Shown piece after piece: positions 19,759-29,021 of a stretch of 64,000 nucleotides of DNA. The stretch lies in assembly GCF_019039055.1 (NCBI RefSeq), contig NZ_JAHOPB010000002.1:124001-188000 (forward strand). The letters run 5' to 3'. Source of the stretch: Reyranella humidisoli. Lineage in GTDB: Bacteria > Pseudomonadota > Alphaproteobacteria > Reyranellales > Reyranellaceae. The translations under genes and the position numbers were made by a program. The notes beneath the pieces are model-generated. The model saw only the letters and a list, made by a program, of their open reading frames with translations, ran no database searches and had not been told where the DNA came from. Within the stretch, counting starts at the first letter, position 1, and each line of letters begins with the position of its first letter.

Positions 19759-22700
19759 ATGAACCTGAACCAAATCGCGACGGGGCAGACCCTCGCTGGC
19801 GTCGAGGTTAACGAAATTGTTACAGTGGTAGCCGTAGTCCCCCAAGGGGATGCTGCCGTGCAGCTGATCTACCGCACTCCGAATGGCGCGATCAAGGAAC
19901 GGCTCCTAGGCGCGGCGGACGAGCCACAGATTCAAGCTGCCACAGCGGAGCGGCCCTTCTCATTCGAAGGTAGCGGAGCCGACTTCCAACTGACGTGTGA
20001 AGCGAAGCGGATCGACCTTGCTTTTCTGTTCGATCCAATGATGGCGGTTCACACCTCGAACGTCGATCCGCTGCCGCATCAGATCACTGCGGTTTATGAA
20101 TCACTGCTCCCGCGTCAGCCGTTGCGCTTCGTCCTGGCCGATGACCCCGGCGCGGGAAAGACGATCATGGCCGGGCTCTACATTCGTGAACTCATCATGC
20201 GCGCCGACTCGCACCGCATCCTAGTCGTGGCGCCGGGCAGCCTGGTCGAGCAGTGGCGTGACGAGCTATTCGAGAAGTTCGGGCTGGAGTTTCACATCTA
20301 CACGAGCCTGCTAGAGCAAGCGTCGCCCAGCGGCAATCCATTCGACGATTATCCGAAGCTGATCGTCCGACTGGACCAGCTTTCCCGCAACGAGGAACTT
20401 CAGGAGAAGCTCTGCGCTCCCGGTTGGGACCTCGCGATCTTCGACGAGGCGCACAAACTTTCGGCCCACTATTTCGGGTCGAAGGTCGAAAAAACCGGCC
20501 GCTTCCGCTTCGCCGAAAAACTCGGGGCGCACACTCGCCACCTCCTGCTGATGACGGCCACGCCGCACAACGGCAAAGAGGAGGACTACCAGCTTTTTCT
20601 CTCGCTTCTGGACTCCGACCGCTTCTACGGGAAATTCCGGGATGGGGTCCACAAGGTCGATGCTTCCGATCTCATGCGGCGGATGGTCAAGGAAGAGTTG
20701 GTGAAGTTCGATGGCACGCCGCTGTTCCCCGAGCGCCGCGCCTATACGGTCAACTACAAGCTCTCCGATATCGAGTCGGCCCTCTATGAGACCGTTACCG
20801 ATTACGTCAAGACCGAGATGGGAAAGGCCGATCAGCTGGAAGGCGCGCGCAAAGGATCGGTCGGCTTCGCCTTGACCGCACTCCAGCGCCGTCTCGCCTC
20901 CAGCCCAGAAGCTATCTATCAATCCCTCAAGCGACGCAGGGAGAGGCTGGAAAATCGTCTTCGCGACGAAAAGCTCGGAATACGGGGCCGGCAGGTGTTG
21001 GCTGAAACGGTTGCCCCGCCGGAAGACGATGACGACCTCGATGCCGCAGAGCAGGAGGGACTTGAAGAAGCGCTGATCGACGAGGCGAGCGCCGCCAAGA
21101 CGGCGGCGGAACTGGAAGGCGAGATTGTCATCCTTCGCGGATTGGAATCGCAAGCCAAGGCTGTCGTCGCCTCCGGTCAGGATCGCAAGTGGGATGAGCT
21201 TTCCAAGATTCTTCAGAACAACCCCGAGATGCGCGATGCCTCCGGACGGCAGCGCAAGATCATCATCTTCTCGGAGCATCGCGATACACTGAATTACCTG
21301 AACGCCAAGATCGCAGGTGTTCTCGGCAACCCGGATGCCATCGTGACCATCCATGGCGGCACACACCGGGATGAACGCCGCAAGCGGCAGGCTCTCTTTC
21401 GCTCCGACCCGGATGTTCGTGTTCTGGTGGCGACCGATGCTGCGGGCGAGGGTGTCAACCTCCAGAACGCCAACCTCATGGTCAACTACGACCTGCCCTG
21501 GAACCCCAACCGCCTGGAGCAGCGCTTCGGACGTATTCACCGGATCGGGCAAACCGAAGTTTGCCATCTCTGGAACCTGGTGGCGAAGGAAACGCGCGAA
21601 GGCGATGTCTACCACCGGCTGCTGAGCAAGCTCGAAGTTGAAAGCGCGGCCTTGAAGGGCCGCGTTTTCGATATTCTCGGCGAGGTCTTCGAGGAGACGA
21701 GCCTCAAAGACCTTCTAATGCAGGCGGTCCGCTATGGCGATAGCCCCGAGGTTCGCGCCCGCCTGACCACGAAGATCGATCAGGTTCTGGATCACGATCA
21801 CCTCAAGTCGCTTCTGGATCGCAACGCGCTGGCGCAGGAGACGATGAGCGCGGAGCGGCTGTTCGCCGTCAAGGAAGAGATGGAAAGGGCCGAAGCGCGA
21901 CGGCTCCAACCCTATTTCGTGAGAGCGTTCTTCCTGAAAGCCCTGGATGCGATTGGCGGAACAGCCCATCCCCGCGAAGGGGGGCGCTACGAAGTTACAC
22001 ACGTACCCGCCGCCATCCGCGAACGCGACAGGCGGCTGACCGGCCGAAACCGCCGCGAACACGAACCGGTCTTGCGGCGTTACGAACGCATCTGCTTCGA
22101 GCGCGAGGCCATTCAGCCGCTCGACAAGCCCGGCCTCTCTCGCGCAGTTCTCATGCACCCCGGGCACCCGCTGATGCTCTCCGTCTCCGACATGCTCCTT
22201 GAGCAGCACGCCAACCTGATGCGACAGGGAGCCATTTTGGTCGATCCGGCGGATGAAGGGCTGGAGCCCGCGCTTCTCTTCCTCCTCACCCACGAAATCA
22301 AGTCCGGTGACGGCGCCATCCTTTCCAAGCGCCTGCAATTCGTGCGCGTTGGCGCTGACGGTAATGCTGCATTTGCGGGCTGGGCTCCCCACCTCGATCT
22401 TGAGCCGTTGGACGAGAGCGAGCGCGTGCTCTTGAACGACACCCTCGCTTCGCCCTGGATAGCAGGCGGCCAGGAAGCGCGCGCCGTCGCGCTTGCGGCC
22501 GGAACGCTGGTACCCGAACACTACAACGAGGTTGCGCACAGGCGCATTGCCCATGTCGAGAAGACGCTTGCCGCCGTGCATGAGCGACTCAGCAAAGAGA
22601 TTGCCTTCTGGCAGGATCGCTGGCTGAAGCTCAAGGAGGATGGCGAAGCAGGCAAGGATGTGCGGCTCAATCTCGAAAATGCCCGCCGCACGGTCGCAGA

Positions 22701-26192: not shown

Positions 26193-29021
26193 ATGAAGCC
26201 TTGGAGAGAAATCGCGATACCACACAAGGACGTGTTGGAGGGCACATTCCAACAGTCTGAGTTTGCGGCTGACATCACGGCTGTTAGCACGGGAAAGGCG
26301 GGGCGCGAATATCAGGACGCGGTCGCATTCTTTGAGCGCACATACATTACCGAAGGTATGGGCCTGTTGCTGACGCAAGTCGCACAGCGCCTGGCGGGTA
26401 GAGGCGGCGAGCCGGTAGTACAGCTTCAGACGGCATTTGGCGGTGGCAAGACGCACACCATGCTAGCTGTGTACCACCTCGCCACGCGCAAATGCGCCCT
26501 CTCGGATTTGGCAGGAGTTCCCATACTCGTTGACCGGGCGGGTCTGATGGATGTGCCACAGGCGCGTGTCGCCGTGATTGACGGCACCGCCCATGCGCCA
26601 GGGCAGGCCTGGAAGCGGGGCAAGCAGGTCATCAAGACGCTGTGGGGTGAATTGGCTTGGCAGCTTGGCGGTGCCGAGGCCTTTGCAATGGTCAAGGACG
26701 CCGATGCCACGGGCACCTCCCCCGGTAAGGACGTCCTGCGGGAACTACTAACCGCTTACGCGCCATGCGCTGTCCTAATAGACGAACTGGTCGCCTATGT
26801 CCGGCAGTTCTCTGAAGGGCAGGCGCTCAGTGGTGGCACTTACGACAGCAATCTGTCTTTTGTGCAGGCGCTGACCGAGGGGGTCAAGCTCGTACCGAAC
26901 GCCATCGTCCTGGCATCGTTGCCCGAATCGGAGGTCGAGGCGGGTAGCCAGCGCGGCGTGGCCGCATTGCGGGCACTCGAAAAGACTTTTGGGCGGATAC
27001 AGGCGCTCTGGAAGCCCGTTGCAACCGAAGAAGCTTTTGAGATTGTGCGCAGACGGCTCTTTGAGCCAATGCGGGACGCCAAGGCACGGGAGAGTGTGTG
27101 TCGCGCCTTCGCCGATGCTTATGTTTCCGAGGGAGCGAAGCTTCCCGCCGAGACGCAGGAGGGGCGTTACTACGACCGCCTCCTGCAGGCCTATCCCATC
27201 CACCCGGAAGTGTTCGACCGCCTCTACGAGGACTGGACCACCATCGACGGGTTTCAGAGGACGCGTGGCGTGCTGAAGCTGATGGCAAAAGTTATCTACC
27301 GCCTTTGGAAGGACGACAACAAAGATTTGATGATCCTGCCCGGAAGCCTGCCACTGCACGACGGCAGCAGCCGCAACGAGCTTACCTACTACTTGCCGGC
27401 TGGATGGGACGCCGTGATCGAGCGGGACATCGATGGGGATCGCGCCGAAACCACGGAACTCGAGAACAAGGAGCCGCGCTTTGGTCAGGTCGGCGCAGCC
27501 CGCCGCGTTGCACGCACCATTTTTCTGGGAAGCGCGCCATCCTCAGTTGCGACCAAGGTGACGACGCGCGGCATCGACCGTGCACGCATCGTGCTCGGCT
27601 GCCTGCAGCCAGGTCAGGCCTCTTCTGTCTACGCCGACGCGCTCAACCGCCTCTCCGACCGGTTGCACTATCTCAATGCCTCCGGCGACAAGGTTCAGGA
27701 CGCAACCCGATTCTGGTTCGATACCCGTGCGAACCTGCGGCGGGAGATGGAGGATCGCAAACGCCGATTCGATGACAAGACAGAAGTGCGCGGCAGGATC
27801 GCTGAAGCGCTGAAGAAGGCTGTCGGCAACGCTGCTTTCTTCGATGGCGTGCATATCTTTACGCCTCACGCAGACATCCCCGATGACACGGCGTTGCGCC
27901 TTGTCGTCCTACCGCCTGAGAACTGGTACTCGCGCGAGGAATCACGGGCCGCATTCGATTCTGTCCTGGACCGCGTTCGCAACAACGGGTCGAAGCCGCG
28001 CTATCGCGGCAATCGCCTGATCTTCCTTGCGGCCGATCACGGAGCGCTTTCGCGCGTGAACGACGCTGCCCGTGTCGCGCTTGCTTGGGCTTCCATCGTC
28101 GATGACGTGAAGGAAGGGCGGCTCAATATCGATCTCTTGCAGAAGAACCAGGCCGAGAAGGAACTTAAGACGGCTGACGAGGTTCTGCCCCGTGCGACGC
28201 GCGAGTGTTACAAGTGGCTGCTTTGCCCTGTGCAGGAGACGCCGACCGACCCGAAGCCGAATGTTGAGGCATTTGCACTCAACACTACCGCTGGTTCGGT
28301 GGGCGGCGAGATCGAGCGCGTGTGCACCGACAACGAGCTTGTGATCGCGACGTGGTCGCCGATTCATCTGCGCACGAAGCTGAAGGAGCTCTATTGGAAG
28401 GAAGGGCAGAACGCGGCTGGTGCAGCAGCGTTCTTCGAGGACACGCTGCGCTATCTCTACATGCCACGTTTTAAGAGCCGCGATGTTCTCGCGCAGGCAA
28501 TAAAGGCGGGTGCAGCCAGCCGGGACTTCTTCGGGACGGCCTACGGCCAGAGCGGTGAAGGCTTCGAGGGATTTGCGCTGGGAGGCGGAAGTGTCGTTTT
28601 CGACGATACGCTGCTTCTGATAGAGCCCGACGCTGCAAAGGTTTACGACGCGCATCAGAAGACGCTGACGACCGCGCCGACGGATATGGGCGGAGCGGCT
28701 CCGGATACAGGCGCTGGAAGGTCTGGAGGATTCAGCGATTCTGCGACTGGACAATATGGCGGATTGACGACGACCGCTAACTTTCTCGCGCGCTCCAAAT
28801 CGTTCCATGGTTCCGCGGACATAGCGCCCGCGACCGCAAAGATGCGGCTTGTCCAGATCGCCGAGGAGATAATCGCCGTTCTGGGCTCGGACCCAAACGC
28901 CACGGTTAAGCTAGTTCTGGAGGTGTCGGCAGAATTTCCGGAGGGAGCGACTGATACAGTCAAGCGCGCAGTCTCGGAGAACGCGCGCAGCCTGGGCCTG
29001 AAAACCGCGGAGTGGGAGTAG
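26193..29021 (+). CDS. DUF499 AAA-type ATPase (Hma-type defence)
   Basis: A 942-residue predicted ATPase. The DUF499 N-terminus is clear: [14 protein letters not shown], the P-loop [12 protein letters not shown] (Lys86), and [17 protein letters not shown] as Walker B. SLPESE and RRLFEP follow as in the family. The C-terminal third includes a glycine-rich linker (about residues 825-855) and a short domain ending [14 protein letters not shown]. It is the last gene of the operon; the right attachment copy begins about 210 bases on. Related ATPases occur as BrxC/PglY in BREX systems. The role is unproven; sensing or coordinating the other two is inferred. Confidence 0.9.

Follow-up and report, generated by a model that had tools for sequence, protein, structure and literature searches.

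The window analysed here, a 64,000-nucleotide stretch of the Reyranella humidisoli genome, carries a complete Hma (helicase, methylase, ATPase) operon on an integrase-bearing island in the tRNA-Sec gene. We consider it likely that this operon defends against phages and that its methylase, HmaB, both marks self DNA and guides attack through two exchangeable patches. The system itself is already known; what is new, and testable, is this model of HmaB specificity. It draws on a comparison of related operons, in which operons of Escherichia coli and Thermus thermophilus that are otherwise near-identical have swapped two short patches of HmaB, located between motifs I and IV of the methylase.

A complete Hma operon with intact signatures

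The operon consists of three plus-strand open reading frames (ORFs), each open from ATG to stop: hmaA (19759-23268; 1169 amino acids, aa), hmaB (23265-26180; 971 aa) and hmaC (26193-29021; 942 aa). hmaA and hmaB overlap by 4 bp (ATGA), and 12 bp separate hmaB from hmaC. Against PADLOC profiles, hmaA matches the SNF2 helicase model (PDLC00659, 2039 bits, aa 1-1167), hmaB the DUF1156 DNA methylase model (PDLC00660, 1689 bits, aa 5-966) and hmaC the DUF499 AAA+ ATPase model (PDLC00662, 1464 bits, aa 1-942). Because all three matches are full-length with E=0, the family assignments are beyond chance, and the three genes make up a complete PADLOC Hma system. Pfam agrees, reporting SNF2, Helicase_C and a C-terminal NOV_C domain for HmaA, DUF1156 for HmaB (PF06634, 2.1e-27) and DUF499 as the sole family for HmaC (PF04465, 9.8e-27), which had no relative among PDB sequences. 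The runner-up PADLOC profiles on HmaA were DrmD (379 bits) and BrxH (304 bits). These results bear out a preliminary description of this DNA, which had seen three large overlapping or abutting genes for an SNF2 helicase, a DUF1156 methylase and a DUF499 ATPase, had taken the trio for the putative Hma system described with PADLOC (2021) and had proposed the profile comparison that now places all three genes in Hma; the name, for a putative system, is indeed given in PMC8565338 (Payne et al. 2021).

The signatures of all three proteins are intact: GAGKT at 131, DEAH at 229, an 11-residue motif at 588 (protein letters not shown), GWD at 1072 and EVKGR at 1093 in HmaA, and GGGKT at 83 and VLIDE at 194 in HmaC. 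HmaB retains DPFAGGG at 150 (motif I) and DPPY at 578 (motif IV), together the pattern of an amino-methyltransferase. PADLOC's HmaB model is moreover named a DNA-adenine methylase, and HmaB shows a weak match to the D12 adenine methylase family (20.1 bits against a cut-off of 22). In view of these features we regard it as highly improbable that HmaB makes 5-methylcytosine (m5C) rather than N6-methyladenine, even though the text of PMC8565338 calls it a predicted m5C methyltransferase. A second or silent hmaB cassette was ruled out, as the genome holds hmaB at a single place.

Inheritance of the HmaB core and of the rest of the operon

To describe how the parts of the operon are inherited, we compared the identities of protein segments with that of the HmaA helicase across 31 operons (465 pairs), namely the window copy and 30 loci in which each protein aligned over at least 93%, by Mantel rho with 999 permutations (locus L062, a near but not identical duplicate of L047, was left out of the main alignments). 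Helicase identity was tracked by HmaA 661-1169 (rho 0.94), by HmaC 1-525, 526-820 and 861-942 (rho 0.88, 0.92 and 0.87) and by the C-terminal module of HmaB, aa 751-960 (25515-26144, plus strand; rho 0.92), with 0 of 999 permutations in each case. HmaB 401-575 was independent of it (rho -0.16, 936 of 999), and pairs whose helicases were identical at 0.97-1.00 had identities of 0.29-0.43 in this segment. None of the tested parts of HmaA and HmaC followed the insert that contains it (raw rho -0.05 to -0.19). HmaA, HmaC and the HmaB C-terminal module are thus co-inherited, and the HmaB methylase core with its insert does not travel with them. As the insert changes without a matching change in HmaA or HmaC, attack specificity would either come from HmaB or be absent, with cutting blocked by methylation.

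In alpha-class adenine methylases, the recognition domain lies between motif I and DPPY. The corresponding HmaB insert, a candidate target-recognition domain (TRD), spans aa 201-572 (23865-24980, plus strand). In a structural model of HmaB (m838c09b1a5c1; predicted local distance difference test, pLDDT, 81.8; predicted template modelling score 0.76), it lies between the strand at 169-173 and the DPPY strand at 573-577. Both patches, aa 391-421 (patch 1; 24435-24527, plus strand) and aa 487-564 (patch 2; 24723-24956, plus strand), fall inside it, the position that PMC12839542 (Rakesh and Krishnan 2026) gives for the recognition domain.

Patch exchange within species

Closely related operons show the exchange most directly. 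For T. thermophilus we sampled 9 of 17 plasmid records, one of which (L117) lacks hmaB and hmaC in its stretch and two of which (L113 and L116) have HmaC cut by the end of the stretch. Averages over 20-aa windows (the last, single-column window ignored) stayed at or above 89% for HmaA (8 sequences) and 92% for HmaC (6), with HmaB (8) dropping to lows of 56% in patch 1 and of 59-64% in patch 2. All four combinations of patch-1 and patch-2 alleles were present (L109/L115, L108, L116 and L113), and therefore recombination has occurred between the two patches. For E. coli (9 of 15 genomes sampled, with L129 left out because its annotated hmaB is split), strains T43 and AW1.7 are 99.9% identical in HmaA, 98.2% in HmaC and 83.3% in HmaB, with 40-aa windows as low as 35% in the HmaB insert; AW1.7 and ET846 have identical HmaBs up to column 440 and then share 40% and 38% across columns 481-560. 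Among the E. coli pairs listed (11 of 28), HmaC was 97.5-100% identical whether the HmaB patches differed or agreed. The same drop in identity at HmaB was seen in Rhodococcus (3 HmaBs; 4 of 14 records sampled, with the HmaB of L118, shortened beside a transposase, left out). We found no published account of HmaB patch swapping in the open-licence literature (bioRxiv lies outside this coverage), the passages of PMC12839542 that describe the recognition insert do not mention swapping inside it, and no published Thermus motif data appeared among the best 10 matches listed.

Several observations weigh against a reading in which HmaB alone, and two patches alone, set specificity. Exchange reaches more widely than the patches, since HmaB 1-200, 201-400 and 576-750 also follow the helicase poorly (rho 0.38, 0.29 and 0.07; 0, 7 and 284 of 999 permutations). 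HmaC varies at aa 821-860 in the main set (28-32%), a stretch that looks like a linker, and at columns 1021-1060 in Rhodococcus (4 sequences, 54-58%). With helicase identity allowed for, the partial correlation between HmaA 661-1040 and the insert is 0.30, the largest found for any part of HmaA or HmaC, so that HmaA may in some measure be matched to the insert. A Foldseek search with the HmaB model yielded nothing at an E of 0.001 or below, and a second look at it returned general methyltransferase folds only (best Trm14, Z 17.1, root-mean-square deviation (rmsd) 2.6, 177 residues aligned); position and variation are therefore what points to recognition as the role of the insert. Finally, the patch words described below were picked by eye before they were put to a held-out set.

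The correlation with HmaA would also suit an arrangement in which HmaB only protects the host and the invader is recognised by HmaA or by the C-terminal part of HmaC, the latter being the least conserved part of that protein (aa 826-942, mean pair identity 0.37). PMC12839542 proposes that wHTH and RRM domains of the ATPase take part in recognition. We judge this unlikely. The HmaC tail was tried as a swapped specificity domain and rejected, since aa 861-942 follow the operon with the rho of 0.87 given above; the E. coli HmaCs remain nearly identical despite differing HmaB patches; and, were a specific attack guided from outside HmaB, a host in which nothing but the methylated motif had changed should lose its protection. 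The inheritance pattern thus lends no support to recognition by the ATPase tail. One Thermus plasmid adds to the picture: in L117 (T. thermophilus SNM7-6, 7441-12860), hmaA is kept, hmaB and the HEPN-DUF499 gene that the other Thermus plasmids have are missing from the stretch examined, and the neighbouring HTH and HicB-type genes remain. Here hmaA is carried without its partner methylase, in line with attack that is either derived from HmaB or unspecific. Attack guided by HmaB remains our preferred reading, and the simplest account of the sequence comparisons is that the HmaB insert sets the motif.

A recurring vocabulary of patch words

Patch 1 stops ahead of an invariant YG and draws on a small set of words, eight of which cover 53 of 61 HmaBs: ALG[FI]R (17), PRDFKTPN (12), NSRH[LM]TP (7), R[NA]FWT (5), PRWFSPPL (4), R[LM]TGG (4), KKHRNFQ (2) and VPGM[AS]ERVV (2). 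These counts include close relatives; the 61 HmaBs were cut to 49 for the pair histogram only. PRDFKTPN crosses phyla, occurring in E. coli, Rhodococcus, a Planctomycetaceae genome and a Desulfobacteraceae genome, and the pools of patch words were seen in Pseudomonadota, Thermus, Actinomycetota and Planctomycetota. Because the words had been picked by eye, they were tested on 50 further loci, which yielded 26 distinct recognised patches (the others being too short, too divergent or repeats); 14 of the 26 bear a word, against a background in the same loci of 18 occurrences in 13,167 open 20-aa stretches, the 14 included. The window copy has a word of its own (12 protein letters, not shown; 24492-24527, plus strand), found in 0 of the 60 other HmaBs and recurring in L151, a viral contig with an HmaB at 50% identity, a recurrence noticed post hoc. 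HmaB aa 66-80, which are bimodal too, were rejected as a word site, being an indel that follows lineages.

Patch 2 of the window copy is 85% identical to that of Thiocapsa locus L051, 82% to that of L048 and 64% to that of E. coli ET846. One patch-2 group (L049, L063, L088, L093 and L125; single linkage at 65%) is paired with five patch-1 words. We give about even chances to a two-slot code, in which the two HmaB patches, drawn from word pools that cross phyla, would set the motif that is both methylated and attacked, with HmaA, HmaC and the HmaB C-terminal module serving as a specificity-neutral effector. If so, a word common to two operons would predict that one half of their motifs is common as well, for the window copy and L151 through patch 1 and for the window copy and ET846 through patch 2.

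Immune proteins can vary fast through inhibitors, and the patches might accordingly vary through binding of a phage anti-Hma protein and not through DNA reading. Two things speak against this: the same few words turn up in different phyla and in backbones that are unrelated, and the variable segment sits between motif I and DPPY, the site at which PMC12839542 places a TRD insert; we hold this explanation to be quite improbable and retain DNA reading as the role of the patches.

A predicted nuclease in HmaA and a model of Hma action

The preliminary description had pointed to the helicase C-terminal domain as the apparent nuclease, and both residues and fold favour that view. The NOV_C domain (aa 1024-1169; 22828-23265, plus strand) carries D1074, E1093 and K1095, invariant in all 22 aligned HmaA C-termini. 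With its model (pLDDT 88.6), Foldseek returned two matches at an E of 0.001 or below, the best solved neighbours being SPARDA nuclease subunits. VIA-align placed it with the Holliday resolvase Hjc (1gef; Z 10.0, rmsd 3.3, 107 aligned), SPARDA (9qcc; Z 10.0, rmsd 4.3, 121 aligned) and NhoI (8q5n; Z 9.5, rmsd 3.0, 108 aligned), and more restriction enzymes also match. Together these data support a predicted PD-(D/E)XK nuclease.

In the mechanism we propose, HmaB would methylate adenines within a motif of host DNA and would also read the same motif on incoming DNA, in both cases through the insert with its two exchangeable patches (~aa 391-421 and 487-564). Its C-terminal module would dock onto HmaC and HmaA, unmethylated sites would license the HmaA-HmaB-HmaC complex, and HmaA would then travel along the DNA and cut with its nuclease. 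We infer from the exchange of the insert that HmaB, by way of two elements that can be exchanged, sets specificity for self-marking as well as for attack.

Relation to known systems

Hma was reported from 26 phyla, often beside Septu, in PMC8565338, where the systems cloned and tested were others; the window copy agrees with that description in gene content, gene order and full-length model matches. PMC12839542 has since reclassified the DUF499 trio as Type-1 BREX-Related (BR), reported it from 2446 taxa and noted that the helicase was later confirmed to act in phage defence (Liu et al. 2024, PMC11232893). According to PMC12839542, Type-1 BR systems have a methylase with a TRD insert after strand 2, a helicase with an N-terminal TUDOR domain and a C-terminal PD-(D/E)XK nuclease, and a DUF499 ATPase with a C-terminal RRM-like domain, and a four-cysteine zinc finger in the insert is usual for BR methylases without being a type criterion. 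The window copy shares the DUF499 ATPase, the DUF1156 methylase with its insert after strand 2, the helicase joined to PD-(D/E)XK and the lack of PglZ, and is a Type-1 BR system in every feature compared except the zinc finger; it differs in that HmaC has no HEPN match and HmaB has no CxxC, a motif present in 13 of the 61 HmaBs (11 of them from Thermus or Rhodococcus, near aa 300). The N-terminal HKD nuclease of Type-2 BR has no counterpart among the HmaA Pfam matches, which include no PLD/HKD family.

BREX and DISARM were each tried as an identity for the operon and ruled out. Type 3 BREX has homologous classes of helicase, methylase and ATPase (PMC12839542), and BrxH profiles score about 300 bits on HmaA. 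The same source assigns BrxC to DUF6079, and the window ATPase matches DUF499; the preliminary description was thus right that these families also occur in type 3 BREX, with the refinement that the DUF499 trio is now Type-1 BR. PglZ (PF08665), a component of BREX and of Type-3 BR that the preliminary description had called absent, had 0 matches in the whole genome, with 2 of 14 control genomes positive. DISARM shares a DrmD-like SNF2 helicase with HmaA (381.5 bits), a score under the NCBIfam equivalog cut-off of 610 bits, and, helicase families excepted, the remaining drm profiles were missing from the ranked matches of the four scanned proteins. Further BREX genes, and drmABC, were absent among the island proteins scanned, as the preliminary description had reported.

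Exchange of specificity is familiar elsewhere: type I HsdS and BREX PglX have exchangeable recognition domains. Hma resembles them in that a specificity module would be exchanged and the remainder of the system kept; it differs in that exchange takes place inside the methylase core, at two short patches.

A tRNA-Sec island

As the preliminary description had proposed, the operon is cargo of an island in selC. The tRNA-Sec gene lies at 13715-13811 (plus strand, ARAGORN), with a 20-bp left att repeat copying its 3′ end (13792-13811) and a right repeat, one base shorter (19 bp), at 29230-29248. L004, a locus of a same-genus genome with an empty site, agrees with the window as far as 13815 (90%), and the match picks up at 29230 (88%); ~15.4 kb was therefore inserted. 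L005 has the same arrangement. G+C content is 0.56-0.63 across most of the island, against 0.65-0.70 at 8-14 kb.

Adjoining the tRNA gene is a tyrosine integrase (13974-15230, plus strand; Arm-DNA-bind_3, Phage_int_M and Phage_integrase in Pfam), for which ATG 13974 was chosen as the start, the ORF itself opening at TTG 13935. A second tyrosine recombinase (17519-18610, plus strand; PF00589, 6.6e-7; phrog_1, 4.5e-14) and a serine recombinase of the resolvase/invertase type (18691-19383, plus strand; PF00239, 1.2e-28; phrog_125, 7.4e-34) sit between the integrase and hmaA (17519-19383); a relative of the latter was found near hmaC in L050 only. The ORFs at 15227-15829 and 16012-16626 had no family match in profile scans. 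The former (200 aa) has relatives in two Azohydromonas loci (L088 and L090; 41-42% over 132 aa), which sit ~0.6-1 kb past hmaC. The idea of a common Hma element was rejected, as five island proteins compared with 118 loci gave just four weak matches.

Operon architecture and embedded genes in relatives

Comparison with relatives revealed two features that the preliminary description had not raised, the modularity of HmaB and the frequency of inserted genes. Among 63 named loci, 45 had all three genes placed, invariably in the order A-B-C, and in 31 of these 45 one or both of the measurable junctions hold an insertion longer than 300 bp; the other 14 are window-like. The window copy has no gene between hmaA, hmaB and hmaC, which upholds its earlier description as compact, and a search of its junctions for embedded defence genes ended at the 4-bp overlap and the 12-bp gap. 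The best matches of ten embedded proteins from relatives were to Septu or HEC (six), PDC-S05 (one) and AbiLi (one); of the remaining two, one matched helicase families only and one had no match.

Such genes bear on whether the window operon, though intact, is inactive as defence and is instead silent or serves to stabilise its island. The mobility of this island and its three recombinase genes would be compatible with that; all motifs are intact, the family is associated with defence genes and several of the tested embedded genes match PADLOC defence models, and we therefore think inactivity doubtful and defence the better account.

Individual loci hold further observations. In L051 (Thiocapsa), a 256-aa ORF between hmaA and hmaB (6318-7088) has no PADLOC or Pfam match and is a candidate new embedded defence gene, and in L083 (Planctomyces, 6115-8474) a CBS-domain protein and a small SNF2-type helicase of 501 aa lie between hmaB and hmaC. 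Several Thermus plasmids (L108, L110, L112, L113 and L115, ~8225-9439) have a divergent hmaA and a Fic-family gene beside hmaB; in these, HTH, HicAB or RelE-type toxin-antitoxin genes separate hmaB from the HEPN-DUF499 gene. Relatives of hmaB also occur in 16 IMG/VR viral contigs (L148-L163), and full-length hmaA is present in 14 of 5426 complete E. coli genomes.

Implications

The literature covered here leaves the target-recognising subunit of Hma (Type-1 BR) unsettled, and the swap pattern points to HmaB. Natural alleles whose differences are almost confined to the patches can be paired in E. coli T43, AW1.7 and ET846 and in the T. thermophilus plasmids, and the window copy, free of embedded genes, offers a clean minimal operon for study. 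If the model is true, two short peptides could suffice to predict the motifs of many Hma systems, and retargeting of the effector in laboratory strains could help to explain its action.

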